From a virus, in the IMG/VR virus record IMGVR_UViG_3300025012_000732, positions 1 to 25,271 of that record: DNA of 25,271 nt; one strand, given 5' to 3'. The notes below the pieces were generated by a model. The model ran no database searches, was not told where the DNA came from, and worked only from the letters and a program-made list of their open reading frames with translations. This document shows, in pieces, positions 6,620 through 25,271 of the stretch (the stretch's first letter is position 1; the number at the start of each line of letters is the position of its first letter). Made by a program: the position numbers and the translations under genes.

Positions 6620-6673
6620 GAATCTCTCTTTCAGCCGTGCCCGGAGGAAGTAGTCTCTTGAGGGCTTGGAAGT

Positions 6674-11240: not shown

Positions 11241-11279
11241 AAAAAAAGGGTGCAGTGGGACTCGCGGCCCACTACACCC
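11241..11279 (-). terminator. Intrinsic terminator directly upstream of terS
   Basis: On the minus strand GGGTGTAGTGGG pairs with CCCACTGCACCC (12 bp with one G-U pair, 8-base loop) and is followed by seven T. It should stop transcripts from the accessory genes to the right. No U run exists on the other strand, so it works in one direction only. Confidence 0.85.
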
Positions 11280-11339
11280 GTAGGAGGAATAACACCATGC
11301 TTCACTGGGATGAAATTTACATACTTTTGCCCTATCGTG

Positions 11340-11561
11340 TCAACGGGAATTTCCCAAAATCTTTTTACGCCGATCTTTGCGTACCGGATCAACGCGGGCG
11401 ACAACATCCAAAATATAGGAGGGCTTATACCCCAAGATGTTAATCTCCGGGTCTGCGGCGATTCGATCAACCGCTTCACCTTGAGACATTTCACCGTCCC
11501 TGGTCAGGTTCCAGTACGCCTTCCTGATACGGGTGTAAATCCTCGCCCGAGAGCGATTCAT
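11340..11561 (-). CDS. Small basic hypothetical protein
   Basis: 73 aa, rich in Arg and Lys (MNRSRARIYTRIRKAYWNLT), with an Ile-rich middle (VDRIAADPEINILGYKPSY) and a basic tail (VRKDRRKKILGNSR). The pattern suggests a small nucleic-acid-binding helical protein. The ATG overlaps the stop of the HNH gene (ATGA), and it is the last gene before the terminator at 11241-11279. A competing frame on the same strand (start 11494) is less likely, since it has no coupled start and unusual composition. Not assigned to a family. Confidence 0.65.
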   Translation of the reverse strand: MNRSRARIYTRIRKAYWNLTRDGEMSQGEAVDRIAADPEINILGYKPSYILDVVARVDPVRKDRRKKILGNSR

Positions 11562-12226
11562 AGTTCTTTCTTCGCAGCTTCTGAGAGACGGTGTTTCTCC
11601 CCGTTTGTTGGGATTTTCCTCTCAGGATGGGGTACGACTTGGGATTCGGGAGGAGTGGCCTGGGCCCTCAAGCGGACACACTTTTCACCATCTTGGTTAC
11701 GGAATATCTCCATCGAACCCGCGAAAGAGCACATTTTCTCCAAGTACCGGTCCGCGGTCTGGGCTGAAACCCCCGCATACTCGGCTCCTGCAACCTTCAG
11801 CTCTTTATACACAACCACCCCAAACTCTCTCACGATCTTATATACATACTTCCTGAACTTAGGCTCACACTCCATGTTTTTCACCATTTCCCCCGACATC
11901 ATCCTCACTCCCTCTCTCTCTCCCTCTCTCTCACTCTCTCTCAAGGTATTAGGAGATACCAAATTTTTATCCCCACCCGGGAGAATGGATGACGCTGCCT
12001 TTTTCGAGCGTTTTCCCGGTCCGCGACGTGGACCCTTCGCCTTGTTGCACCGGCCACAGGCCGGCGCCCAGTTTGAACCGTCGGAGGGATTGTACTCGGG
12101 ATCGCCGTTTAGGTGATCGACTTCGAGGGGCCGATCCGTTCTATTGCAGATGTGGCAACGATTCCCGTATTCCTCGACGGCTTGGGTAAGTGCCCGTCGT
12201 GTTTGAGTAGGGTTGAGCTTCGACAT
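11558..12226 (-). CDS. HNH endonuclease with C-terminal DNA-binding-like region
   Basis: 222 aa. An HNH (beta-beta-alpha metal) nuclease lies at residues 20-65: Cys24-x2-Cys27, the EVDHLNGDP catalytic segment (Asp37-His38), then PACGRCN with Cys57, Cys60 and Asn61. Residues 85-100 (SEREGEREG) come from a CT-rich simple repeat. The remainder (residues 110-180) contains EPKFRKYVYKIVREFGVVVY and VSAQTADRYLEKMCSFAGS, which looks like a winged-helix or similar DNA-binding fold. HNH proteins next to terminase are known to assist genome packaging in other phages, so this may be a packaging nuclease rather than a homing enzyme. The start abuts the next gene (12226), within a run of overlapping genes. 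Confidence 0.85.
   Translation of the reverse strand: MSKLNPTQTRRALTQAVEEYGNRCHICNRTDRPLEVDHLNGDPEYNPSDGSNWAPACGRCNKAKGPRRGPGKRSKKAASSILPGGDKNLVSPNTLRESEREGEREGVRMMSGEMVKNMECEPKFRKYVYKIVREFGVVVYKELKVAGAEYAGVSAQTADRYLEKMCSFAGSMEIFRNQDGEKCVRLRAQATPPESQVVPHPERKIPTNGEKHRLSEAAKKEL
11908..11942 (-). repeat. CT/GA simple-sequence repeat inside the HNH gene
   Basis: A 35-base plus-strand stretch made almost only of CT dinucleotides broken by single CC or CA. It encodes the alternating Glu/Arg linker of the HNH protein. Change of length by a non-multiple of 3 would shift the frame between nuclease and C-terminal region. Confidence 0.75.
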
Positions 12227-12851: not shown

Positions 12852-12974
12852 TCCTTCATCTCACTTCTCTCTCGTCCGCGTTTGCGCCAGAGCAGTTCCC
12901 TCTTCTCCCTCCTTCGTCTGGTCAGAGAGCTTCACTCCATTCTCCCTTCCTCGTGTGATGTTTGTTCCCCGGTC

Positions 12975-13235
12975 TTACCCTCTTCGGGGGAGGGGGGTGG
13001 GGAGAGGGTTGATAAATTCGTGCTCCCACTCGTAGTATCCGGACCGTCCATCAGCCCAAATCGAGACTGCGATGCAATGTGTACCCGAAAGGATGTCTTT
13101 ACCGCAGGAATCACACCTATAATCAGCCCTCGATAAGCCGTGTTCGAGTTGGTAGTGTTCGGTTGAATCATTTAGCTTGATAAAGATCGCTACGAGTTTA
13201 TCCTTACAGGGCGGACATAGGATTTCTCTTTTCAT
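12975..13235 (-). CDS. Small zinc-ribbon-like protein ending in a palindromic element
   Basis: 86 aa. Two Cys pairs, LCPPCKDKL (residues 7-10) and YRCDSCGKDI (residues 41-44), are a plausible four-Cys zinc site. The middle DSTEHYQLEHGLSRADY and end WADGRSGYYEWEHEFI look like ordinary protein. The last residues, NPLPTPLPRRG, come from an inverted-repeat sequence (12977-13009) of a kind that often encodes PLPxPLP peptides in bacteria, so the original stop may have lain elsewhere. The ATG overlaps the stop of the upstream gene (ATGA). The 123 bases beyond (12852-12974) show no gene. Confidence 0.65.
   Translation of the reverse strand: MKREILCPPCKDKLVAIFIKLNDSTEHYQLEHGLSRADYRCDSCGKDILSGTHCIAVSIWADGRSGYYEWEHEFINPLPTPLPRRG
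12977..13009 (-). repeat. Palindromic CCCTC...GAGGG element at gene end
   Basis: ACCCTCT (12977-12983) and AGAGGGT (13003-13009) are perfect 7-base inverted arms around a G/C-rich core. Its makeup resembles small palindromic interspersed repeats of bacterial genomes. It lacks a T run, so it is not a standard terminator. Confidence 0.45.
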
Positions 13236-13558
13236 CCCTTCCCTCCTTCCCCGGATTTATGTTTGGCGAGGTAAATATTAAGTGGTTCAATTATTTTATT
13301 CAAGTTCCGCACAATATCTTCTCGGTCTGGTAATTCCCGCTGAATTATCACGCCCAACATCAACGCCATCGTGGTTTCAAAAATTAGTCTGTGTGCCTCT
13401 CCTTTCTCCATCTCCCCCTCGTGCTCGGAGAGGGCGGCGGCGTGTCCGGCGAGATAACCATTTCTTGCACCCACACGTCCGCCACGCTCATAGGCATTGA
13501 CCTGGGCGGGCCATGCACCCTCTGCGTACTTTTCAGCCTTTTCCTCGATTGGATTCAT
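13232..13558 (-). CDS. Hypothetical helical protein
   Basis: 108 aa, starting MNPIEEKAEKYAEGAWPAQV, mostly helical by composition, with a middle GYLAGHAAALSEHEGEMEKG and a hydrophobic stretch FETTMALMLGVIIQREL that is too short and too polar for a certain membrane segment. The C-terminus is Gly/Lys rich. The stop overlaps the next start (ATGA). Similar small phage proteins with AERGGRVGARNG-like patterns often have no known role, and I cannot name a family. Confidence 0.65.
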   Translation of the reverse strand: MNPIEEKAEKYAEGAWPAQVNAYERGGRVGARNGYLAGHAAALSEHEGEMEKGEAHRLIFETTMALMLGVIIQRELPDREDIVRNLNKIIEPLNIYLAKHKSGEGGKG

Positions 13559-13606: not shown

Positions 13607-14164
13607 CTACCCGCCCTCCTTCTTGTTTTTCATCTGTGTAGCGTACAATTTCAAGCCGTACCGAATTATTTTCTGTTTTATAGCGGCCCCTGCGGCGGCC
13701 TGTGCGGCCCATGCGGCGGCCTGTGCGTCCTGTGCGGCCCGTGCGGCGGCCTGTGCGGCGGCCCCTGCGGCGGCCTGTGCGGCCCATGCGGCCCATGCGG
13801 CGGTCCCTGCGGCGGCCTGTGCGGCCCGTGCGGCGGCCTGTGCGGCCCGTGCGGCGGCCTTTCTTTTGACGCCTCGCGCTTTCAGGTATGCCTTCACCGC
13901 CTGAATCGCCTTACGGGGCCTATTATCTTCTGGATATTTCTTCTCGTAGATATTCAACACCGCCTCTGCCGCGTGGATCGCGTACCAGACGTTATTATCT
14001 TTTGTGAGCAACCGGACGATCAGCCAATTTGCCCAATCGAAATGATCGTTTTCCAGGAGAAGGAGAGTCAACTTCCTCGGATCGGTTTCCTTCCGCTCTA
14101 AAAACCACTCAACGCCCTCTGAGCAAGCGTCTCTTGCCTCAAGCCACATCTTTGTGATCTCCAT
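13607..14164 (-). CDS. Helical protein with long alanine-heptad repeat
   Basis: 185 aa. The N-terminal ~100 residues form a helical domain with GVEWFLERKETDPRKLTL, FDWANWLIVRLL and YAIHAAEAVLNIYEKKYPED, followed by NRPRKAIQAVKAYL. This layout resembles proteins often annotated as putative immunity protein (Imm5-like), but that is from memory. Residues ~103-161 are nearly all Ala with Arg, Gln, Gly and Trp at heptad spacing (for example AAARAAQ repeated), as in an alanine-zipper coiled coil. The end is basic (YGLKLYATQMKNKKEGG). GGAGGAATAGC precedes the ATG. The repeat lies in a GCGGCC-rich DNA minisatellite with all frames open, and the frame chosen is supported by the unique ends. Confidence 0.75.
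   Translation of the reverse strand: MEITKMWLEARDACSEGVEWFLERKETDPRKLTLLLLENDHFDWANWLIVRLLTKDNNVWYAIHAAEAVLNIYEKKYPEDNRPRKAIQAVKAYLKARGVKRKAAARAAQAAARAAQAAAGTAAWAAWAAQAAAGAAAQAAARAAQDAQAAAWAAQAAAGAAIKQKIIRYGLKLYATQMKNKKEGG
13683..13860 (-). repeat. GCGGCC minisatellite coding for alanine heptads
   Basis: Imperfect tandem copies of GCGGCCTGTGCGGCC-like units cover about 178 bases on the plus strand. On the minus strand they read AAARAAQ, AAAGTAAW, AAAGAAAQ and related units, mostly of 7 codons (21 bases), with a few shorter or longer. The near-identity of units indicates recent slippage or unequal crossover. Confidence 0.85.
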
Positions 14165-14258
14165 GCTATTCCTCCTTCTCCCCCCGCCGTTCTGTGGTGG
14201 TCATACCGTAACTCCGTCTGGATATTTTGTGGTCAAGAGTCGTGTTCTTCGTTAGTCA

Positions 14259-14507
14259 TCATTTCCCCCTCTTCAATAAGTCCTGTACGGAGCGCGGGGA
14301 TTTATATTTTAGAAGTTTCATTATCTCGCGGATGCTGTACCCTTCCTTCCGCAAATATCTGGCCGTCCGCAACTTGATTATTCTCTCGGTGTCGGGGAAT
14401 TCCAAGATTGCCTCACACAAATCTCGTATAAGAATTAATGCCGTATTCACATCGCCCGGACCAGTCTGGGCGCACTCTCCTATTCCCTTAATCTTTTTAG
14501 TGTTCAC
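14259..14507 (-). CDS. Small helix-turn-helix DNA-binding protein
   Basis: 82 aa starting at GTG 14507 (reads MNTKKIKGIGECAQTGPG). The frame extends upstream to an ATG at 14534, but AAGGAG stands at the right distance before the GTG. The C-terminal half (ARYLRKEGYSIREIMKLLKY then KSPRSVQDLLKRGK) is a clear helix-turn-helix of the kind found in phage regulators and recombinase linkers. The start overlaps the end of the 57-codon gene by 11 bases. Target and direction of control are unknown. Confidence 0.65.
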   Translation of the reverse strand: MNTKKIKGIGECAQTGPGDVNTALILIRDLCEAILEFPDTERIIKLRTARYLRKEGYSIREIMKLLKYKSPRSVQDLLKRGK

Positions 14508-14670
14508 TCTTCCACTCCTTCGTCTTATTATCAATCTCCTCGGTGGCTACTTCGTACCACAACTCAACACCCTCCCAATCACTACGCAGAAGCCCTTGAA
14601 GGCCTGCGCGTCGCGCAAAGTCTACTACGTAGTGGCTGTTCCAGAGAAGCTTTTTCTGAAATTCTCGCAT
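14497..14670 (-). CDS. Small hypothetical protein, 57 codons
   Basis: 57 aa, beginning MREFQKKLLWNSHYVVDFAR and ending KEWKSEH. It is helical and mixed-charge, with an aromatic-rich middle (SDWEGVELWYEVATEEIDNK). GAGGAATAG lies just before the ATG at 14670. The end overlaps the GTG start of the HTH gene by 11 bases and the start overlaps the end of the preceding gene by 46 bases. Good coding appearance and a strong ribosome binding site support it, though it is short. Confidence 0.6.
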   Translation of the reverse strand: MREFQKKLLWNSHYVVDFARRAGLQGLLRSDWEGVELWYEVATEEIDNKTKEWKSEH

Positions 14671-14846
14671 CTATTCCTCGTTCTACGGGTGGCGCTTCTG
14701 AGAGCATTCAGTATGTGTCCATTGTGCTTGAACTGCTCCGGCAGATTAAAGCACTCTTCCTCCGCGATAGAGTCAAGGTCGCTGTCCGGCACGGCCTCTG
14801 GTGGGGTGGCGCGGGTGTTCCATTGCTCTGAATTTGAGTTATTCAT
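14625..14846 (-). CDS. Small hypothetical protein
   Basis: 73 aa. The first half is acidic (MNNSNSEQWNTRATPPEAVP, then DSDLDSIAEEECFNLPEQF) and the second basic (LNALRSATRRTRNRCENFRK). The ATG at 14846 overlaps the stop of the previous gene (ATGA), supporting translation, but the last ~15 codons overlap the 57-codon gene in another frame, so its true end may be affected by an error. No family recognised. Confidence 0.5.
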   Translation of the reverse strand: MNNSNSEQWNTRATPPEAVPDSDLDSIAEEECFNLPEQFKHNGHILNALRSATRRTRNRCENFRKSFSGTATT

Positions 14847-15268
14847 CTCTCGGTCTCTTTGTGTTCTATGTGGGGGGCGGGGAATCCTTTGTAAAAAGCA
14901 TAAGCCGCGTCATAGTCTGGTTCGGGTAGGAACATCAACACTTTGTGATTTGCCCAATCGTAAAACAATGGCGTTCCCCATCCTTCTGTTTGACCAGGAA
15001 TGTCATCGGGCATATAATGACAAGCGTCGATTCGATGCCCCATATCCGGCTCTTCGTCCATAAAGGTCAGGAAGGGGCCGGTCGTAGTTGGCTTGTATTC
15101 TGGGTACTTCCTCCACCCCCCATTGTTCTCCGAGGCGAGGCAGGAGGCGCGGAGTTTGACTATCTCGTCGGCAAGATATTGTCGGGCAAGAACGTCCCCG
15201 TGCTCGTTCTGCATCGAACGAATCCGCTCAACCTCTCTCCGCACCCTCTCCGGTAGTTTGTCTGTCAT
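14843..15268 (-). CDS. Hypothetical protein (DUF551-like pattern)
   Basis: 141 aa from the ATG at 15268, which overlaps the stop of the upstream gene (ATGA); the longer frame to 15361 is discarded. The N-terminus is a charged helix (MTDKLPERVRREVERIRSMQ). The C-terminal half has GGWRKYPEYKPTTTGPFLTF, then HRIDACHYMPDDIPG and FYDWANHKVLMFLPEP. The order W-x-x-x-P-x-x-x-P, a strand, then AxY/ACHY and a final PEP resembles DUF551-like phage proteins (small beta fold, unknown function). The match is from memory. Confidence 0.6.
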   Translation of the reverse strand: MTDKLPERVRREVERIRSMQNEHGDVLARQYLADEIVKLRASCLASENNGGWRKYPEYKPTTTGPFLTFMDEEPDMGHRIDACHYMPDDIPGQTEGWGTPLFYDWANHKVLMFLPEPDYDAAYAFYKGFPAPHIEHKETER

Positions 15269-15750
15269 TTGGCACTCCACCTGAGAAAATCCATGAAGCC
15301 CTTGAGTGTGGCCGGTCGAGGATATTTCTGTCCCCGAACTCTCGTAAATATGTCGCCGCAATTATCGCAGACATATACCTTGGCGCCCGGTATCCATGCC
15401 ACACTGCCGGAATACAGATCGTCATTCCCAACGGCGAGAGAGTTCCCCGGCCATGATGCCGTATCACCGCAAGACGGGCAAAGCGGAATGGCGGATGAGT
15501 CCAAGCGGCATGAGTCTACCCAATCGTCCCAACGCGAGAAAAAATCTTCCCACATCATTCCGTGTTTGAAGATGAAGGGGGTCGCCTGCTTGATTATCAT
15601 ATTATCCCATTTATAAACCACCCTCACCCTATAATCGGGTGGCGGCTCAACGGCGATACTATCCTGTCCCCTTGCCACCTGTGCGCCGAGTAAGAGCAGC
15701 ATACAGAGACCAAAGCCTATCCCCTCCATGCGTGAGTTATACCGGATCAT
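15265..15750 (-). CDS. Putative exported zinc-ribbon protein
   Basis: 161 aa. Residues 1-28 (MIRYNSRMEGIGFGLCMLLL then LGAQVARG) look like a Sec signal peptide and are followed by Gln at the expected cleavage site. The mature part carries two Cys pairs: PLCPSCGDTA near residue 92 and VCDNCGDIFTR near residue 130, forming a probable four-Cys zinc ribbon. The start at 15750 overlaps the stop of the HNH gene (ATGA); a second ATG at 15729 also starts before the hydrophobic core. A secreted zinc ribbon from a phage accessory region is unusual. Role unknown. Confidence 0.65.
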   Translation of the reverse strand: MIRYNSRMEGIGFGLCMLLLLGAQVARGQDSIAVEPPPDYRVRVVYKWDNMIIKQATPFIFKHGMMWEDFFSRWDDWVDSCRLDSSAIPLCPSCGDTASWPGNSLAVGNDDLYSGSVAWIPGAKVYVCDNCGDIFTRVRGQKYPRPATLKGFMDFLRWSAK

Positions 15751-16148
15751 TTCAGTTGTGACAATACCGTATTCCCCGTGCGCTTGGAATCTTGCAGTAA
15801 ATCCTTATCGCCTTTTTCTGAGTTACAAGTCGCACAAACAAGTCGGAAATTCCCCGCCGCGTGTAACCCGCCCTTCACAATCGGCTCAATATGATCTACC
15901 GTCATTTCGGCGAAGTTTTTTTCATCTCCGCACCGGGGACACTTCCCAAACTGCTTGTAAAATATCTTCCATTTATCTCTACACGAGATGGGTTTTCTTC
16001 TCTCTCGGTCGCCCTTCTCCAGACGTTCGCGCATGAGCATCTTAACCGCACGGTGAAACTCAGAGCGCGGATAACGATTGAAGATTGCGCGGAGTTCTGT
16101 TAAGCAGTTGGTCGTTTTAGTCCCGGCCCCTTCATAAATTTTCGCCAC
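15747..16148 (-). CDS. HNH endonuclease
   Basis: 133 aa. The HNH core is at residues 66-112: Cys70-x2-Cys73 (KCPRCGDEK), TVDHIEPIVKGG with Asp85-His86, Asn100 and CATCN (Cys105, Cys108, Asn109), the normal four-Cys, beta-beta-alpha metal layout. The N-terminal ~60 residues are basic (HRAVKMLMRERLEKGDRERR) and probably bind DNA. The start overlaps the end of the upstream gene by 49 bases, which is long but both frames look coding. It could be a free-standing homing-type nuclease or a packaging or replication nuclease. Confidence 0.85.
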   Translation of the reverse strand: MAKIYEGAGTKTTNCLTELRAIFNRYPRSEFHRAVKMLMRERLEKGDRERRKPISCRDKWKIFYKQFGKCPRCGDEKNFAEMTVDHIEPIVKGGLHAAGNFRLVCATCNSEKGDKDLLQDSKRTGNTVLSQLK

Positions 16149-18070: not shown

Positions 18071-19405
18071 TTATACTGTGGCCGGTTCCTTCTTGGTAAT
18101 TATCGAGATCGAGGCCAACCGGTCGCTGATGGCGTTCGTGATCTGCTCCATCCCGCCGTTGACGATGATCCCCTGTGCGGCAAACGCTTCGGCTTCCTTC
18201 TGAAGATAGCCGAGGGCTTTTGCACTCTTCGCCTTTCTGATCTTGGCGAGAATCTCAATGATGAGGGGTCTATCATTCGTCGGCGCACCTGTCTCGCTGA
18301 AGAGAGCACTCTGGTTCCCTTCCGGCGCGGTGGTGTTCTCCGTCGCGGCGGGCTCAAGTTCAGCCCTCATCGAGTTCAGGGCCGCCTTCAGGATGTCCGC
18401 CTTTGTACTTTCCACCTGCGTCCAGGAGCGGGTCTTGAGATGCTTGTAGATCAGGTCCGATTTCGTCTGCTTCGATAGAGCATCCTGGCCGGGGAAATGG
18501 GCGACGAGCAATCCTTGAATCTCCTCGGAGAAGATGGCGCGGGAACGTTTCTCCCTCGCCCAATCGGTGTCTCCATCGTCGTCCACGTTGAGGGCGGTGG
18601 TGGTTTCGGTGTTAATGGTGGTGTGGGCGTCCGGCTTGAGGAGTTTGATGTGGGGCACGAAGAAATCGAATCCGGGATTGTCGCAGGATTTTCCGTCCAA
18701 CCCGGAGGAGGCGCCGAAGCGGTCACCGAGGACCGTTGCACGGCGGACGACCTGGATACGCTTTCCGTTTTCGGCGGGTATCTGCTCCTGTTCCATCAGC
18801 ACCAGAAGGGAGGGTTCATAGCCGAATTGACCCTCGACCCTCATCTTGACGCCCGTTTTTACCAGCTCCTTCTTGCCGGTTTCCTCATTCTCCTCACGCT
18901 CCCAGATGTCTCCGGCCCTGCCGCAGATGATGATGTGCAGCGGCGAGTTCAGGTAGAAGTCCGTCCAAGGCTTCCACTCCTTCTTGATCTGGCCCCAGTC
19001 TTCGAGTTCGAGGCGCTTGCGCGGGGGAAGGTTTTTGCCCTTGCGCATCTCGTTGACGCGCTTGAGCCATGAATCCATCAGTTCGTCCCAGGGATGGGTA
19101 ATCGAATCGACGATGAGGATGCCGATGCCCTCCTTGACGCATTCATGTGCGGTGGCGAGGAGGTCCGAGAAGGCCCGGCTTTTGATGCCTACCAGGTCTT
19201 GACCCGTTTCCTTCTTGATGAGAGGCGAGACGTACTCCGATCCGCCTTCGGTGTCGTAATAGGCGATCGGCGAGGCGATGTTGAAATACTTCTTCAGTCC
19301 GATCGCCAAGAGCGACGCGGTGTAGCTCTTGCCGGACTTCTGCCAGCCGAGGAATCCCGCCTTCAAGTATCCCTGACCGGCGCCGAGTGTTTTGAGGATT
19401 GACAT
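18071..19405 (-). CDS. Sak4/RecA-like single-strand annealing or recombination ATPase
   Basis: 444 aa. Walker A is GWQKSGKS at residues 20-27 and Walker B is GILIVDSI at 95-102; IICGRAGDIWE near residue 163 follows the RecA-core layout. This pattern (short N-terminal lead-in, GKS ATPase core, no L1/L2 Rad51 extension seen) matches phage Sak4-type Rad51-like ATPases. The RecA core is about 230 residues; the C-terminal ~200 residues are charged and linker-rich (for example SEEIQGLLVAHFPGQDALSK) and are not part of the usual Sak4 core. AAGGAG precedes the ATG. Function inferred: homologous recombination or annealing during replication. No SSB or DNA polymerase gene is visible in the window. Confidence 0.82.
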   Translation of the reverse strand: MSILKTLGAGQGYLKAGFLGWQKSGKSYTASLLAIGLKKYFNIASPIAYYDTEGGSEYVSPLIKKETGQDLVGIKSRAFSDLLATAHECVKEGIGILIVDSITHPWDELMDSWLKRVNEMRKGKNLPPRKRLELEDWGQIKKEWKPWTDFYLNSPLHIIICGRAGDIWEREENEETGKKELVKTGVKMRVEGQFGYEPSLLVLMEQEQIPAENGKRIQVVRRATVLGDRFGASSGLDGKSCDNPGFDFFVPHIKLLKPDAHTTINTETTTALNVDDDGDTDWAREKRSRAIFSEEIQGLLVAHFPGQDALSKQTKSDLIYKHLKTRSWTQVESTKADILKAALNSMRAELEPAATENTTAPEGNQSALFSETGAPTNDRPLIIEILAKIRKAKSAKALGYLQKEAEAFAAQGIIVNGGMEQITNAISDRLASISIITKKEPATV

Positions 19406-19454
19406 GGTGTTACTCCTTATGTTGTTTGGTGGTTTTTTGTGGAACGCGAGTTAA

Positions 19455-19736
19455 TTATTTCCCCTCCATTTGGGGGAACAGCAGTTTCTTCTTCAAATCG
19501 TACCCTTCTGGAAATACCGTCGTCACGAACAGCCTTCCCTCCTCGTCGGCGCTTAAACCCGCCTCATTTTTCGTGGCCCGGTAGAGCTTCTTTTCCGAAA
19601 GGCCGATAATCGGCGCAACAGTAGGGAGCGCCTTGAGCCTCGGGCAGATTTCTTCGTAATGGTCGAGGGCATTTTGGTAGATGTCGCCGAGGGTGAAGAC
19701 GGTGCGGTCTATTGGAATTTTCACGGACGTTTTCAC
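19455..19736 (-). CDS. Hypothetical protein at the start of the minus-strand operon
   Basis: 93 aa from a GTG at 19736. Starts MKTSVKIPIDRTVFTLGDIY and continues with mixed helical and strand segments (LDHYEEICPRLKALPTVAPI, EEGRLFVTTVFPEGYDLKKK). The start codon overlaps the stop of the 38-codon gene (GTGA), so it is probably translated together with it. No motif is recognised. Its place as the first gene of normal size after the control region, just ahead of the Sak4 ATPase, suggests early expression. Confidence 0.65.
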   Translation of the reverse strand: MKTSVKIPIDRTVFTLGDIYQNALDHYEEICPRLKALPTVAPIIGLSEKKLYRATKNEAGLSADEEGRLFVTTVFPEGYDLKKKLLFPQMEGK

Positions 19737-19849
19737 GGGACGATCTCAAGACGCAGAGGCGGAACATTATGGCCTTGCATCTGGGTGTGGAAATTGGTAG
19801 GAATGGAAAGGGGACATGCGATGAATCCTACCCAAGACGCGAATTTCAT
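19733..19849 (-). CDS. Short gene (38 codons) coupled to the next gene
   Basis: 38 aa, starting MKFASWVGFIACPLSIPTNF and ending VPPLRLEIVP. TTAGGGTGAAAAA precedes the ATG at 19849. The TGA stop overlaps the GTG of the 93-aa gene by 4 bases (GTGA), a classic translational-coupling arrangement. The terminator at 19887-19923 lies 37 bases upstream, so it would need transcription past that hairpin. It may act as a leader peptide or a true small protein. Confidence 0.5.
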   Translation of the reverse strand: MKFASWVGFIACPLSIPTNFHTQMQGHNVPPLRLEIVP

Positions 19850-19886
19850 TTTTTCACCCTAACGCTCTGCAAACTTCCAGGGCAAC

Positions 19887-19923
19887 AAAAAACCCCGTCC
19901 GATTTAGCGCGTCGAACGGGGTT
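19887..19923 (-). terminator. Strong intrinsic terminator in the control region
   Basis: Minus strand: AACCCCGTTCGA pairs with TCGGACGGGGTT (12 bp, one G-U pair) around a 9-base loop, followed by further T residues and GTT. The opposite strand has no T run. It may stop minus-strand transcription coming through the switch region, or act as an attenuator for the operon that starts at 19849. Confidence 0.85.
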
Positions 19924-19971
19924 GAAATATCAATCTTCGGGTGCTTCAATCTTACAGTGTCATGTTACACG
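19887..19971 (-). ncRNA. Putative short RNA or attenuated leader
   Basis: A candidate promoter (-35 TTGCAC, 17-base spacer, -10 CATAAT, at 20006-19978) predicts a start near 19971, and the strong terminator ends about 85 bases downstream. The transcript would carry a 3-codon ATG reading frame (Met-Thr-Leu-stop) and one arm of the palindrome. It is either a small regulatory RNA or the leader of the minus-strand operon under antitermination control. Inference from promoter and terminator only. Confidence 0.4.
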
Positions 19972-19995
19972 ATATATATTATGAGACACAGTAAG
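19951..19995. promoter_or_regulatory. Palindromic operator-like inverted repeat across the promoter
   Basis: CTTACAGTGTCAT (19951-19963) and ATGAGACACAGTAAG (19981-19995) are inverted copies (one mismatch and one inserted base), 17 bases apart. The right arm overlaps the -10 box of the minus-strand promoter. This is where a phage repressor such as one of the adjacent plus-strand helix-turn-helix proteins could bind. Confidence 0.55.
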
Positions 19996-20006
19996 AAGTC
20001 GTGCAA
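19978..20006 (-). promoter_or_regulatory. Candidate sigma70-like promoter P1
   Basis: Read on the minus strand: TTGCAC (20006-20001), 17-base spacer, CATAAT (19983-19978). The -35 box matches TTGACA at 4 of 6 and the -10 box matches TATAAT at 5 of 6. Predicted start near 19971, directed to the Sak4-side operon. Confidence 0.55.
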
Positions 20007-20023
20007 CCCCGCCCGACAATCTG

Positions 20024-20052
20024 AGTGTATAGAATATTCAAGTGAATGTCAA
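20024..20052 (-). promoter_or_regulatory. Candidate sigma70-like promoter P2
   Basis: Minus strand: perfect TTGACA (20052-20047), then TACACT at 17-base spacing (20029-20024) or TATACA at 15. It lies about 45 bases upstream of P1 in the same direction, so the two could be tandem promoters under different control. Confidence 0.45.
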
Positions 20053-20079
20053 GGGGGGGTCGCCATAATTGCCCTGTAT

Positions 20080-20095
20080 TGTGATTTCGGTCACG
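20080..20095. promoter_or_regulatory. CRP/FNR-family-like palindromic site
   Basis: TGTGA, six bases, TCACG is the TGTGA-N6-TCACA arrangement with one mismatch in the second arm. It lies 67 bases upstream of the plus-strand regulator start and 28 bases behind P2. It could be a host CRP-family site or a phage operator. Confidence 0.3.
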
Positions 20096-20161
20096 TTCTA
20101 AGTTCAATATTCCCCGTAAGATAAAAAAACCGGAAAATATATTTTTGTGGAGAGTGGGGCC

Positions 20162-20473
20162 ATGTCATTCATCAGTACACATAATTTCCTGAAAACGCGG
20201 GGCTTCGACGCTTTTATGGCTTTCTACGATGCCTTGGAGAAGGGCGCGGTGCTGCGAGAAATTGCCTTGACGCTTGGGGTGTCCATCTCACGAGCGGCGC
20301 AACTCAAAGACGCATTTTTTGAACAGCATTATTTTTTCCGGGGCGAGGTCGAGGAGGCTGTTGAGTTCTACCTGCAATCAATCGAGTCCTCCAGTGAGGA
20401 GAAGCGCACCCGGTACAAGAAGGTGCGCACCAGCCAGGATGAGCGGGCCGTCAGACCGAAGGTGTTGGCATGA
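20162..20473 (+). CDS. Helix-turn-helix regulator
   Basis: 103 aa from ATG 20162, with GGAGAG a few bases before it; an upstream in-frame GTG (20147) is less likely. MSFISTHNFLKTRGFDAFMA leads into VLREIALTLGVSISRAAQLK, a recognisable helix-turn-helix. The rest is charged and partly coiled (EEAVEFYLQSIESSSEEKRT) with a basic tail. It is transcribed away from the minus-strand operon and lies beside the palindrome at 19951-19995, the usual arrangement of a phage control gene next to its operator. Whether it acts as repressor or activator cannot be read. Confidence 0.7.
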   Translation: MSFISTHNFLKTRGFDAFMAFYDALEKGAVLREIALTLGVSISRAAQLKDAFFEQHYFFRGEVEEAVEFYLQSIESSSEEKRTRYKKVRTSQDERAVRPKVLA

Positions 20474-20691
20474 TCCTTACGGTGTTGGAGCGGACGGTTG
20501 AAGCCGTCGGTAAAGAACATGGCCCAGGAGGTGTGAGGCGATTAATACTGGCGTTGGCGGATGCGCGGACGAATAACTGGACACTCGCCCAAGAGTTCGG
20601 CATTACAATCTTCTCGGTCGCTCTTATGCGACGTGAACGTGATTCACTCGGCGTGGCACTTAAAATTCTATCTTCGCGCTCAAGAAAGTAA
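20470..20691 (+). CDS. Second helix-turn-helix regulator
   Basis: 73 aa, starting MILTVLERTVEAVGKEHGPG; NWTLAQEFGITIFSVALMRR is a helix-turn-helix-like segment. ATG 20470 overlaps the stop of the first regulator (ATGA). Its last 32 bases overlap the end of the minus-strand membrane-protein gene at 20660. Probably co-expressed with the first regulator. Confidence 0.65.
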   Translation: MILTVLERTVEAVGKEHGPGGVRRLILALADARTNNWTLAQEFGITIFSVALMRRERDSLGVALKILSSRSRK

Positions 20692-21283
20692 TAGGTTTGG
20701 TGCCGGCGGTCATCAACCGTCCGATACCGATACTCTTAAACCCGACGGTCCCCCCTCCTCCGTTCAAAGCGAGATGGCCCACAATCCAGAAGTCTTTTTC
20801 AGGAGCAGGGACGAATCTGGTATTTGTGATTGTTGTCAAGGCGGAGGATTCGGCTTGTGCCGGTATCCAGTCCCATGCGAAGCGTCTTGTTGCCGGATCA
20901 GCCGTAACGTCCACCTTGTTGCCGTACTCTTTAATGGTCGCTCTCATTACTCTGAGGGCCGAAGAAAGAGAAAGATTCTTCATTCCTACCAAGGTTTTAA
21001 GAGAATCAATCACTCCTAAAAGCCCCGGGATTGTTCCGGGATGCCGAGTTATTTCAGGTTCTGATTGGGTTGCCACCGGGCCATTATCAGGCCAGTTGGC
21101 GTCTGCTTCGCCATGCACCGGAGGCTTCCAGGGGATCAGGGGACCGTGCGTAGTGTCGCTTACGATGGGTTGGCTCAAGATCTCTACCCTCATGGACTCC
21201 CGGCCATAACGGTAACTCATGTAATGGGAGAAGGCGAGGATGATGACGATAACACCGGCGATGGTCCAGGATTTAGTGTTCAT
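20660..21283 (-). CDS. Membrane-anchored protein next to endolysin (spanin-like?)
   Basis: 207 aa. Residues ~7-22 (TIAGVIVIILAFSHYM) form a single N-terminal membrane helix followed by basic residues and a long soluble part with Pro-rich stretches (PLIPWKPPVHGEADANWPDN), a helical part (LLGVIDSLKTLVGMKNLSLS) and a C-terminal strand-rich part (GTVGFKSIGIGRLMTAGTKP). Its ATG overlaps the stop of the M15 peptidase gene (ATGA), so lysis partnership is plausible: an Rz-like inner-membrane spanin has one N-terminal membrane helix and a long periplasmic part, though coiled-coil content here is low. The end overlaps the plus-strand regulator by 32 bases. Confidence 0.6.
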   Translation of the reverse strand: MNTKSWTIAGVIVIILAFSHYMSYRYGRESMRVEILSQPIVSDTTHGPLIPWKPPVHGEADANWPDNGPVATQSEPEITRHPGTIPGLLGVIDSLKTLVGMKNLSLSSALRVMRATIKEYGNKVDVTADPATRRFAWDWIPAQAESSALTTITNTRFVPAPEKDFWIVGHLALNGGGGTVGFKSIGIGRLMTAGTKPITFLSAKIEF

Positions 21284-21735
21284 TGGCGTAGTCCTACATG
21301 AAGATGCGCATTAGGTGTCAATATGGATTCGGGGTAGATTTGCCAGATGTCGCCGAAATTCATTACGAGACTCATCCAGACGATGGAGAGGAATACTGCG
21401 GCCTTCTGTTGGGATACATCGTTCAGGCGAATGTCGATCGCGTGGCCCTCCCCCGCCCCGTTTTCAAGGTAGTGCCTGGACCGGACGACGTGGACTCTCG
21501 GGGGCTTGGGATCGGTCGAGTGCCCTTCGTGGCCTGATGTAATAACCATCCCGTCTTTATCCTCCGGGAATGTTCCGGCCCAGAGAAGAGAGAGTAGGGT
21601 AATCGCCTCTTTCAAGGTGGGATGCAACTTGTCGCTTTCAACTTCCGGTTTCTCGGCCCAGAGGGCAATGGTTTGGTTCAGGATTTCACCTAAAATAATA
21701 GCGGCGCCCGTTTCGCGGGGATTTGGTCGGGGCAA
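21280..21735 (-). CDS. M15-like peptidoglycan peptidase (putative endolysin)
   Basis: 151 aa from TTG 21735 with AAAGGGAA just before it; no other start gives a better fit. The family signature MVITSGHEGHS (63-73), SRHYL (86-90), GHAIDIR (97-103) and HLHVG (144-148) is that of M15-type zinc peptidases that cut cell-wall stem peptides; candidate zinc ligands are His88, Asp101 and His144/146. Compared with the usual SxHYxGxAxDIR order there is a six-residue insertion (ENGAGE) between HYL and GHAIDIR. No signal peptide, so export would need a holin. It is upstream of the spanin-like gene in the same direction, which fits a lysis unit. Confidence 0.75.
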   Translation of the reverse strand: MPRPNPRETGAAIILGEILNQTIALWAEKPEVESDKLHPTLKEAITLLSLLWAGTFPEDKDGMVITSGHEGHSTDPKPPRVHVVRSRHYLENGAGEGHAIDIRLNDVSQQKAAVFLSIVWMSLVMNFGDIWQIYPESILTPNAHLHVGLRQ

Positions 21736-22297: not shown

Positions 22298-22414
22298 ATG
22301 AAGTTGATTGATAATATTGCGGCCAAGAATGAATGCAAAGTCTGGCTCCGGCGTACATGGCTGTCTGATGGTAAAATGGTTCGCATCCCTCCGCCGATAT
22401 TTAATGAGCGATAA
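22298..22414 (+). CDS. Short hypothetical frame, weak support
   Basis: 38 aa starting MKLIDNIAAKNECKVWLRRT and ending in IPPPIFNER. The stop overlaps the ATG of the next small gene by 11 bases. There is no visible ribosome binding site, and the start lies 18 bases from the opposite-strand gene. Kept because it sits directly before the membrane protein in the same direction. Confidence 0.3.
   Translation: MKLIDNIAAKNECKVWLRRTWLSDGKMVRIPPPIFNER
22311..22339 (-). promoter_or_regulatory. Candidate promoter for the minus-strand gene at 22279
   Basis: Minus strand: TTTGCA (22339-22334), 17-base spacer, TATTAT (22316-22311). The -35 matches TTGACA at 4 of 6 and the -10 matches TATAAT at 5 of 6. 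Confidence 0.35.
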
Positions 22415-22541
22415 ACTCGCCCTGTTCTATTTCGTCCTACTATGCTTCGTTGTCCCGACGATCATATTTTTCGTTGTTGGCGAGGTATGGAGTCTGATCT
22501 ACCTGTCGCTCCTCGGGGTCGGCTTTATGTTTAGCAGATAA
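22404..22541 (+). CDS. Small two-helix membrane protein (holin-like)
   Basis: 45 aa, starting MSDKLALFYFVLLCFVVPTI. Two hydrophobic segments (about 5-22 and 26-42) with almost no charges except at the start, and a short FSR end. Size and topology suit a small holin, and the nearby M15 peptidase would need one, but the gene runs in the opposite direction and has no clear ribosome binding site. It meets the end of the large minus-strand gene with a 2-base gap. Confidence 0.45.
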   Translation: MSDKLALFYFVLLCFVVPTIIFFVVGEVWSLIYLSLLGVGFMFSR

Positions 22542-22543
22542 CC

Positions 22544-25271
22544 TCACCACGTGATTCCCCTCCTGCGCTTCGTGCTGAGTGGCGCAAGTTCATCGAGTAA
22601 TTCTTTCGAGAGTACCCGATTGGTTGCCCTATTGACTACTCCCGCGAACGGGATAACGTTCAGCCCGTAGTTTAATACATCCCGCGTAAGCCCCCTGCCT
22701 GAGAACCGACCGTATCGGCTTGCGTTTTCAAGGTTTGGCAGAACTGGTGATCGGAGGAATGAGCCGGGGTTCGCCCCGTACCAGGGTATTGGGAGAATGT
22801 CCCAAAGGGCTTTATCCGCCGCCCTCGAAACCATATCCTCCCCCTTCTTCTTGTCACCCAAGAGGGATGAATCGACCGTATCCCAAAGAAGTGAGAACGC
22901 CATCGAAATCGCGGTTACTTTGGCGAAATACTTTGCCATGACTGCTGCGCGTCTCGGGCCACTCCCACCTGCGGGCTCCAATTCTCGGATGATACCGTTG
23001 AGTTCTCTTTCGTGGGTCTTGAGGTTATCGACGATCCTCTGAACGTCCGGGTACGATACGCCGAGGTCGTGCCTTGCTTTCTTCGCTTCGGTGAGCATCC
23101 GCTCCATTCCAACCCGATTCCCCTCTACCTCGCGCAGAACTTCAACAGGGGTGACTTCGCCGGTCATCCCCCTCCTCAAGATCAGTTGCGCCCGAGTGCC
23201 ATTGATACCTTCCTGACGCCCGAGGGCTTCACCCAAGACCTGAAGCTGTCGGGTCTTGAACGCGGTGAACATCCCGAGGATTCTGGCATACGGTTTATCG
23301 TAAAAGTCAGCCCTCATCGAGGGGGCGGCGGCGACCTGCGTTTCCGCCGAGGTCGTGGCCGCTTCACGGATCGCCTTGTCGAAAACGTCCTTGTCATTCA
23401 GGAGCTTCGATACGGCCTTGATCCTGTCCCCTCCGAGAGAAGAAAGGGTTTCCCTGTACCTGCGGTCCTTCATGACGCTATTGAAGATGCTCCCGAGTTC
23501 GGTCATGCCCCAGTTGCGGCCCTCGGATTTCTGGAAGGTGTCGATCTTGTTGAACATCTCTCCTACCGTACTGGGCCTGATCCCTTCCTCCGATTTTGCT
23601 ATTTCAAGATACCGGGGGGTTTCTGTTGTGGCGATCTCAACGGCGTCCGCCAGTGCGCCGGAGAAGGAGCTGCGATCACGCCACGTTTTTTTAAGGAGCC
23701 GGTCGGCTTCTGGTGTCCATCTCATCCGGGCGAAATCGACCTGTGTAAGATTCTGTGCCGAGGCTTTCAAGTTCATCCCGAGGAAGTTCCTGTACATCTG
23801 AGAACGAATCCAATTTGCTCCACGGAATGCCGTCCCTCTCCCCTTCTCGGGGTTTAAGACGTTCTCCATGAATTTGACGGCTCTGTCCTTCGAATTCCTC
23901 GATAACTCGACGGGGATGTCCCGCTTGAATTTCGTGTAGTAATAATCCACCCCATCACGGTAAGCGAGTTCCTTTGTCACACTCCGTAGATACGTGTTGA
24001 GAACGCTTGGGAGATCCCGGCGGATGTCCATTTCATAATCGAGGCGGGGCTTGAGGAACCGGGATTTATCGGAGATGAAGGTGTTGAGGTCTTTGATGTC
24101 TAACTGCTGGTCCTTCAGATGTCCGTCTAAGACCTGCTCAAGAAGGTCCACGTCCTTGATGTGGGTGAAATAATCTTCCCTCGTTCTGTATCCCTTGAGC
24201 TTTAACTGATCCTTGAAAAAGTCGAGCATTCGAACAGCGTTTTCGTAGACCTTTTTCTTGGTGGGAGTGTCGAGGATTTGTGCGGCTTGCGTGCGATCTT
24301 CAAGTGCCGTTATAATTGCGTCAGAGGTGGCGGATTTTTCAAAGGTGTTGTCGATCTTCTCGTAAGTCTCGCGGATGTTGTTAATGTAATTATTCCCCTT
24401 CTCCATCAACTGAGAACGGATGAGATCGCCCTGGTACATTCGGTTGGCAAGCTCACCGCCTGCGGCGCCGTAACTCTGGGCAAGGGTAGACACGCGAGAC
24501 TTGAATTTCGCCGTGACCTTCCACTGATTATCAGAATTCACCCGGAATTTCTGGGCTGTCGAGAGGAGTCTTTGTACCTGTTCGGGTGGTAGGTGTTGCT
24601 TGAGGATGCGGTCGGCGGTCTGATTCGCAATTTCCGTGTTGCGCCTATCGGTTTCCTCCCGGACGATCCGCTTTTTCTCTTCCTGCTCGAAGAACCTCAT
24701 CCAGCGGTCCACGTTCTCGCTTTCAAGGCGCTCAAAAGCGGTGAGCTTCCGACCGGGGGCCGCTCCTTTAATGTTGGGGTTTGTCTGTATCTCCTCGATC
24801 ATCTTGGAGCGGACGTACTCGATACGGTCGTTACTCCTTAAACCTCTTCCGGCAGCTTCAAGGGCATAGATACCGATTCGCTCGCGGACTGAAGAGATGA
24901 TCGGCCTTTGATAGTTCCTGGATTTGGGAGTGCGTTTTTCTTTCTTGAGTTCCTTGATGATCCGGTTGATGTAGGCGTCGTTCTGGGCCTTGGTGGGTGC
25001 AATCGGCGCGGCTTCATCTACTTTGCCGGCGAATTCCTTCCGGGTGTTGAACTCCCCCACCACGGGATTGAAGACAAGGTTCTTCGTGACATCCTTGACG
25101 TGATTGAAGATGGCCCTTTTTTGCTCCCCCGATAATCCTCTGAAATCTGGATGCTCTGATAAAAGCGTATTGATCGTCGAGCGAACTTCAAAGGGGAATT
25201 GCTCTGGCCTCATGCGTTGGTCAATAATCATCTTTCGGGCGTCGCTCGTGGCCTTCTTGATGATCGGGTCG
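22544..25271 (-). CDS. Very large virion protein, C-terminal part (partial)
   Basis: The frame continues to the window edge with no stop and no ribosome binding site before the first ATG (25231), so the ATG is probably internal and the N-terminus lies outside; at least 908 codons are visible. It is long-helix rich and Lys/Arg/Glu-rich (for example INRIIKELKKEKRTPKSRNY), with a region RSQMYRNFLGMNLKASAQNL that recalls large internal or ejection proteins and large polyvalent proteins of phages. A hydrophobic stretch (AAVMAKYFAKVTAISMAFSL) near residue 760 could be membrane-active. The C-terminus is basic (STKRRRGITW). Likely an internal virion protein that accompanies DNA into the cell; the resemblance is from general pattern only. 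Confidence 0.65.
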   Translation of the reverse strand, partial: DPIIKKATSDARKMIIDQRMRPEQFPFEVRSTINTLLSEHPDFRGLSGEQKRAIFNHVKDVTKNLVFNPVVGEFNTRKEFAGKVDEAAPIAPTKAQNDAYINRIIKELKKEKRTPKSRNYQRPIISSVRERIGIYALEAAGRGLRSNDRIEYVRSKMIEEIQTNPNIKGAAPGRKLTAFERLESENVDRWMRFFEQEEKKRIVREETDRRNTEIANQTADRILKQHLPPEQVQRLLSTAQKFRVNSDNQWKVTAKFKSRVSTLAQSYGAAGGELANRMYQGDLIRSQLMEKGNNYINNIRETYEKIDNTFEKSATSDAIITALEDRTQAAQILDTPTKKKVYENAVRMLDFFKDQLKLKGYRTREDYFTHIKDVDLLEQVLDGHLKDQQLDIKDLNTFISDKSRFLKPRLDYEMDIRRDLPSVLNTYLRSVTKELAYRDGVDYYYTKFKRDIPVELSRNSKDRAVKFMENVLNPEKGRGTAFRGANWIRSQMYRNFLGMNLKASAQNLTQVDFARMRWTPEADRLLKKTWRDRSSFSGALADAVEIATTETPRYLEIAKSEEGIRPSTVGEMFNKIDTFQKSEGRNWGMTELGSIFNSVMKDRRYRETLSSLGGDRIKAVSKLLNDKDVFDKAIREAATTSAETQVAAAPSMRADFYDKPYARILGMFTAFKTRQLQVLGEALGRQEGINGTRAQLILRRGMTGEVTPVEVLREVEGNRVGMERMLTEAKKARHDLGVSYPDVQRIVDNLKTHERELNGIIRELEPAGGSGPRRAAVMAKYFAKVTAISMAFSLLWDTVDSSLLGDKKKGEDMVSRAADKALWDILPIPWYGANPGSFLRSPVLPNLENASRYGRFSGRGLTRDVLNYGLNVIPFAGVVNRATNRVLSKELLDELAPLSTKRRRGITW

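Follow-up and report, generated by a model that had tools for sequence, protein, structure and literature searches.

Genes and Features of the Locus

The stretch of DNA analysed here, hereafter the window, is a virus record of 25,271 bp whose genes include those for a P22-type portal, the terminase and a major head protein. Within it, an early operon on the minus strand, which opens with a small gene followed by that of an AAA ATPase, diverges from two ORFs for helix-turn-helix-like proteins (HTH1 and HTH2), and the region between them holds promoter-like sites, a palindrome and an intrinsic terminator, while the late operon has a leader of its own on the same strand (Table 1). Both the terminator, which sits 94 nt downstream of the predicted start of the early promoter P1, and the complement that it finds at the 5′ end of the same RNA were overlooked in the first-pass annotation of this DNA.

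Table 1. Positions of the features discussed in the text, numbered from the first base of the window.
Feature	Position	Strand	Remarks
Early promoter P1, TTGACA-17-TACACT	20024–20052	−	10/12; present in G001
Weak second promoter-like site P2, TTGCAC-17-CATAAT	19978–20006	−	8/12; below scan threshold, read by eye
HTH1, ORF for a 103-aa helix-turn-helix-like protein	20162–20473	+	Divergent; 98% in G001
HTH2, ORF for a 73-aa protein, possible helix-turn-helix	20470–20691	+	96% in G001; weak
Palindrome, 12-nt arms (11/12), 23-nt gap	19950–19996		Core 19950–19961 / 19985–19996
Strand A, GUCGGGCGGGGUUG	20004–20017	−	First 14 nt of predicted leader RNA; complements B
Strand B, 5′ arm of the terminator plus one flanking base per side	19911–19924	−	Common to A:B and B:C
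Strand C, 3′ arm of the terminator	19891–19902	−	Strand A is a near copy
Intrinsic terminator of the early leader, 12-bp stem and U-rich run	19884–19923	−	Stem 19923–19891
First early gene, 93 aa, function unknown	19455–19736	−	ORF
AAA ATPase gene, early operon	18071–19405	−	Pfam AAA_24, PHROG 1366; 62% in G004
73-aa conserved gene	11340–11561	−	Directly upstream of late leader
Late promoter, TTGACA-18-TAAATT	11314–11343	−	G004 counterpart TTTACA-17-TAGATT
Terminator of the late leader	11248–11279	−	About 20 nt before terminase small subunit; G004 equivalent

The nearest record, G001 (IMGVR_UViG_3300025326_000085; 42,670 bp, its ends 98% alike over 150 bp), aligns with the window in three long blocks at 98–100% DNA identity and one short block at 96%. 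Two fragments, G002 and G003, have a TerL matching that of the window at 99–100% and were judged too short to cover the early-leader region. A distant relative, G004 (IMGVR_UViG_3300046737_000121; 47,327 bp; early locus L018), is probably complete, since it carries an exact 127-bp end repeat. Its proteins are 62% (AAA ATPase), 56% (portal), 66% (head protein) and 53% (TerL) identical to those of the window, and 23 of the 50 called G001 proteins match G004 at E 1e-3 or better, with the circular order kept. For the AAA ATPase alignment the best 80 of at least 441 relatives were kept, and among these several syntenic genes were common only to the G004 locus, one further gene being shared by each of L039, L044, L050 and L075; L101 (36%) entered only the background set of terminator-like hairpins described below.

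Searches of viral contigs with TerL and portal recovered G001 and two near-identical fragments, the portal query also finding G004, and with the same queries no relative was found in genome contigs. G001 was the sole match for HTH1 and for the 93-aa early protein, as it was for the palindrome pattern in viral contigs, and the leader DNA gave no match in the phage collection. The absence of an integrase from the window, recorded in the first-pass annotation, extends to its relatives: PF00589 was found in none of three records (G000, which is a fragment, G001 and G004) and PF00239, used as resolvase/integrase test, in neither of two (G000, again the fragment, and G001). A lysogeny switch is hence less likely.

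The window and G001 also differ in places. Over the greater part of 22300–25043, where a large 895-aa ORF lies, G001 gives no DNA match although the flanks are 96–99% identical, and by sequence comparison this is a swapped module. Two stretches of the early region, 14205–15106 and 12874–13401, are likewise unaligned between neighbouring blocks at 98–100% identity. The early region includes two HNH endonuclease genes (15747–16148 and 11558–12226). The 185-aa protein encoded at 13607–14164 has an alanine-rich repeat in its second half and resembles Imm5-like immunity proteins of Pfam only below the cut-off (E 0.00055). A further terminator-like hairpin lies on the gene strand at 6626 (minus) and is present in G001 as well.

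Promoters, Palindrome and Divergent Regulator-Like Genes

A promoter scan of 19000–21500 returned four promoter-like sites against a shuffled mean of 1.9. Of the two minus-strand promoters that had been proposed for this region, P1 is a good one, with a predicted start near 20017, seven bases past its −10, whereas P2 is weak and indistinguishable from background; the RNA predicted from P2 would be devoid of strand A. A third site, TTTCCA-16-CATAAT (19793–19766, 9/12), stands in the window between the early terminator and the first gene.

Regarding the palindrome, its inverted arms are found where they had been reported, CTTACAGTGTCAT at 19951–19963 and ATGAGACACAGTAAG at 19981–19995, and they do flank a −10, that of P2. 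Taken alone, it is not above chance for a window of 25 kb: equally good inverted repeats number three in the window and average 2.06 in shuffled sequence. The surrounding 700 bases contain two such repeats against a mean of 0.055 (two or more in 1 of 1000 shuffles), in a stretch that was picked post hoc and where one of the two is the terminator itself. The first-pass annotation had suggested looking for the same palindrome elsewhere, and no second copy turned up: allowing one mismatch, the 11-base arm core occurs in G001 only at the site itself and is absent from G004, while in the window, with up to two mismatches, five matches (two of them the site itself) against 6.02 expected correspond to the background level.

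The two opposed helix-turn-helix genes of that annotation exist as plus-strand ORFs with helix-turn-helix-like models, but they are not backed by a family match: neither protein matched PHROGs or NCBIfam, and their Pfam matches were sub-threshold only. The AlphaFold models are middling (mean pLDDT 67.6 for HTH1 and 70.5 for HTH2), with a helix spacing that is helix-turn-helix-like. Compared with the PDB by Foldseek, HTH1 gave 85 matches, all at E 2.3 or above, with many DNA-binding helix-turn-helix proteins among the 50 listed, and HTH2 gave three, all of them designed coiled coils. In a PDB profile search, residues 55–76 of HTH1 matched designed TPR proteins with a best E of 8.3e-09 and no individual stretch above threshold, a result that says nothing for a helix-turn-helix.

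These elements invite the explanation that the palindrome is a binding site for HTH1 and/or HTH2, which would repress the early promoter on the minus strand and perhaps their own, the RNA structure being incidental. The genes do adjoin the early promoter and each strand has a possible −10 that overlaps the palindrome; however, 35 bp separate the centres of the half-sites, one of the longer arms has a 2-base insertion relative to the other, the arm core has no second copy in G001 or G004, no integrase was found in the records searched and G004, as described below, has the control region without the HTH genes. We regard such a DNA switch as unlikely, if a serious contender. In the predicted terminator form of the minus-strand RNA, the palindrome folds into the central hairpin between strands A and B, and it is probably one hairpin of the leader RNA and not the heart of a classic repressor switch.

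A Leader Terminator and Its 5′-End Complement

The non-random feature of the region is its RNA architecture. Strand A and strand B pair at 14 of 14 positions in the window (12 Watson-Crick and 2 G-U), 12 nt of strand A being a near copy of strand C (11/12), such that B can be taken by A or by C. The energy of A:B is −25.3 kcal/mol in the window and −24.0 kcal/mol in G001, and in each of them none of 2000 shuffled leaders did as well. When 12,665 windows of 16 nt (a random quarter of the contig) were compared, a single one was as good as A, at the complement of B itself on the other strand; all 50,502 windows of 20 nt were tested against B, and the 31 that form at least 12 pairs are taken to be A, C and B's complement, overlapping. 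Over 19880–20017 the window and G001 differ by six substitutions, of which A and C are free, and B has a single one that keeps a G-U pair.

As a background, 102 terminator-like hairpins were collected in 82 other phage loci, a set that includes some near-duplicates; the loci of the window and G001–G004 were left out, and terminators less than 150 nt from the locus start were dropped. With the arms cut as in this set, the window and G001 give 12 A:B pairs, which 1 of the 102 hairpins equals. This hairpin (L068, 7715–7749) has a 12-pair upstream complement as long as that of the window, and by energy its pairing is the stronger (−23.5 vs −20.5 kcal/mol).

The sequences, their complementarity and the terminators in the 5′ leaders are direct observations, and the competition between folds is that of an energy model. 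In this model, computed for every third length of the growing transcript, A:B is the best fold to within 0.1 kcal/mol in window transcripts of 103–124 nt, and in G001 it lies 1.4–1.8 kcal/mol above the best fold at 103–121 nt. At 130 nt the terminator form leads by 3.9 kcal/mol in the window and by 10.6 kcal/mol in G001, where it is thus favoured more strongly, and the minimum-energy fold of the full-length leader is the terminator form. Folding also indicates that a GCACCC stretch upstream of B is able to pair with A. The window leader folds better than all of 200 shuffles (z −3.55); it matched no Rfam family at the gathering threshold, and the three matches of a relaxed search (E 0.49–2.3) look like chance.

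An Early Region Devoid of the HTH Genes

In G004, a 201-aa gene homologous to the 207-aa protein of the window (31%) lies upstream of the early region. The 180 nt or so after its stop hold the promoter-like site TTTTCA-18-TATAGT (9/12), then a leader some 100 nt long and a terminator; a 186-aa gene and the AAA ATPase follow. From the stop of the upstream gene (5194 in L018) to the −35 (5233) there are only about 40 nt, which leaves no room for HTH genes in the gap. HTH1 had no match in G004, in a search made without a positive control, and for HTH2 every hit there stood at E 1.2 or worse. In the lineage of the window, the HTH pair probably serves as an additional regulator of the control region.

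A terminator between promoter and first gene, as expected of an attenuator, is thus found in the window, G001 and G004. An exclusive antiterminator strand above chance is found in the window and G001 and weakly in G004, whose A:B pairing is broken, with 9 bp, a longest contiguous helix of 5 and an energy of −13.4 kcal/mol; shuffles did as well in 155 of 2000 trials over the whole leader and in 14 of 2000 over the first 16 nt, as did 681 of 23,912 sampled genome windows. The stability of the G004 leader is that of its shuffles (z +0.26). With the pairing this weak in G004, which lends slight support, a convincing strand A is confined to a single lineage, that of the window and G001 (98%). The relation of the early leaders of the window and G004 is itself uncertain, because in an alternative local alignment, of modest quality (equalled by 28 of 1000 shuffles), the G004 promoter-like site comes to lie near P2. 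Covariation between the two was dropped as evidence, since they can be aligned either by their A strands or with the G004 promoter set against P2, the latter local alignment scoring better.

The terminator could also have a plainer role. As the 9/12 site TTTCCA-16-CATAAT follows it in the window, it could only end a late operon arriving from the 207-aa gene (20660–21283), the last same-strand gene before the region, which ends at 20660; the early genes would then start at that site and strand A would be a chance match, an equally long upstream complement being found in 1 of the 102 other terminators. Against this, the first early gene of G004 lies 42 nt beyond the end of the terminator stem, an interval free of promoter-like sites (8/12), from which it follows that the terminator belongs to the early leader there; A:B is moreover far outside the shuffles, and the order of promoter and terminator is repeated in the late leader. 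We consider this explanation rather unlikely.

The Late Operon Leader

Over 241 bases, the late promoter-terminator region of the window, with its strong terminator, recurs unchanged in G002 and G003. Late terminators stand close to the following gene, about 20 nt before it in the window and with the stem ending 15 nt before it in G004, and in neither interval was a promoter-like site (8/12) found. Together with the early terminator of G004, these terminators without a promoter after them imply that transcription either reads through the terminator or starts elsewhere. A strand equivalent to A was not found in the late leader (955 and 992 of 1000 shuffles as good), and late read-through would therefore need a factor. 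The gene directly upstream encodes a small, basic protein that is a candidate late regulator; it is conserved in G004 (45% over 66 aa, E 3e-14), has no Pfam match and has one marginal PHROG of unknown function (E 0.086). In phage lambda, the Q gene occupies the same relative place, directly upstream of the late leader.

Judged by sequence, what is conserved in the late region is its layout and the neighbouring gene. Indeed, the late promoter and leader alone are not significantly alike between the window and G004 (61 of 1000 shuffles), and a better late-leader alignment (4 of 1000) was not used as it included the coding end of the 73-aa gene. A motif common to both leaders of the window, TKACACGATA, was likewise dropped: with at most one mismatch it has four matches against 1.71 expected, 6 of 100 shuffles give at least four, and it is lost from the early leader of G001 and absent in G004.

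Proposed Control of the Early Operon by Read-Through

The explanation that we favour, tentatively and at slightly less than an even chance, is that the early operon is gated by RNA read-through of its leader terminator. The start sites, the read-through, its trigger and the role of the HTH proteins are what we infer. RNA polymerase would start at P1, near 20017, and strand A would pair with strand B as soon as B is made and before C exists, so that P1 transcripts would tend toward read-through. If A were held by the GCACCC stretch, by a bound factor or by another RNA, B would pair with C and transcription would terminate; a start at P2, from which A is absent, would likewise lead to B:C pairing and termination. 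Termination at B:C would release a short RNA of about 130 nt from P1 or about 90 nt from P2. HTH1 and HTH2 probably repress or tune this promoter region. Of the compact genetic switch described in the first-pass annotation, what stands is an early-operon control region with opposed regulator-like genes; the data do not demonstrate a DNA operator switch, nor do they require one.

Several results count against control by read-through, namely the one background hairpin in 102, the weak pairing in G004, the full-length fold being the terminator form, the 9/12 promoter-like site after the early terminator of the window and a late leader lacking an antiterminator strand.

A more specific scheme would give the choice of promoter a decisive part. 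A start at P1 would carry A and disarm the terminator without any protein, a start at P2, some 46 nt further on, would always stop and yield a short RNA, and an HTH protein at the palindrome/P2 or at P1 would switch the early operon via termination and not by simple repression. To this scheme we attach very little probability.

The short RNA might also be the main product, pairing in trans like IsrK of prophage Gifsy-1 and the P4 immunity RNA, with the read-through mRNA as its target. The unit from promoter to terminator is discrete, about 130 nt long, and A and C both complement B, so that one copy of the RNA can pair with another; on the other hand, Rfam contains no family for it at the gathering threshold and only the three relaxed matches mentioned above. 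We hold a trans-acting RNA to be improbable.

If control by read-through is correct, an uncultured phage family in which no integrase was found gates both its early and its late operons by leader terminators, and in one lineage the first 14 nt of the early leader supply its antiterminator. The region would then be a small system for the test-tube study of RNA-only antitermination, and it suggests checking the 5′ leaders of other phages for strands mimicking a terminator arm.

Comparison with Known Systems

Among known systems, a CI/Cro-type switch has divergent DNA-binding regulators; the divergent proteins here have middling helix-turn-helix-like models and no family match. Unlike such a switch, the present locus has no repeated operators (arm core with at most one mismatch in G001 and G004), and integrase or resolvase was found in none of the records searched (PF00589 in 0 of 3, PF00239 in 0 of 2).

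In P4 CI RNA immunity, a leader with repeated complementary strands decides early termination, the immunity RNA acting in trans by pairing. Unlike the P4 CI/C4 antisense RNAs, the window leader matches no such RNA family, either at the gathering threshold of Rfam or in the relaxed search.

The put RNA of HK022 likewise follows closely on an early promoter, and its structure enables polymerase to pass terminators. It differs in being about 70 nt long, with two stem-loops, and in acting on terminators at least 10 kb away, whereas here the predicted 5′ strand pairs with the arm of the leader's own terminator and modification of the polymerase is not indicated.

For the late leader, the lambda-type pR′-tR′-Q arrangement offers a parallel, with a promoter, a short leader, a terminator, the late genes and a small conserved gene upstream. 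The layout is indeed found here, a promoter then a terminator preceding the late genes and a regulator-sized gene standing upstream. The Pfam and PHROG search of that gene, however, did not reveal a Q homolog, the 73-aa protein having no Pfam match and the single marginal PHROG (E 0.086).

With respect to the pairing of a short and a read-through RNA, the nearest system is IsrK of prophage Gifsy-1, in which a short terminated and a long read-through RNA arise from one promoter with alternative folds (PMC4825925). IsrK differs from the present leader by acting on translation in trans.

Like a riboswitch or attenuator leader, the early leader precedes an operon and offers two pairings, A:B and B:C, that exclude each other. 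It departs from these leaders in that the searches recognised none of the described aptamers, inspection by eye gave no convincing leader peptide and the antiterminator strand forms the extreme 5′ end of the RNA. In the literature covered, which was partial and consisted of titles and abstract openings, a 5′-end antiterminator strand of this kind is not described. Terminators ahead of phage early genes are already known, and the early leader described here is filed, not as a member of any named family, but as a variant of phage leader antitermination/attenuation.
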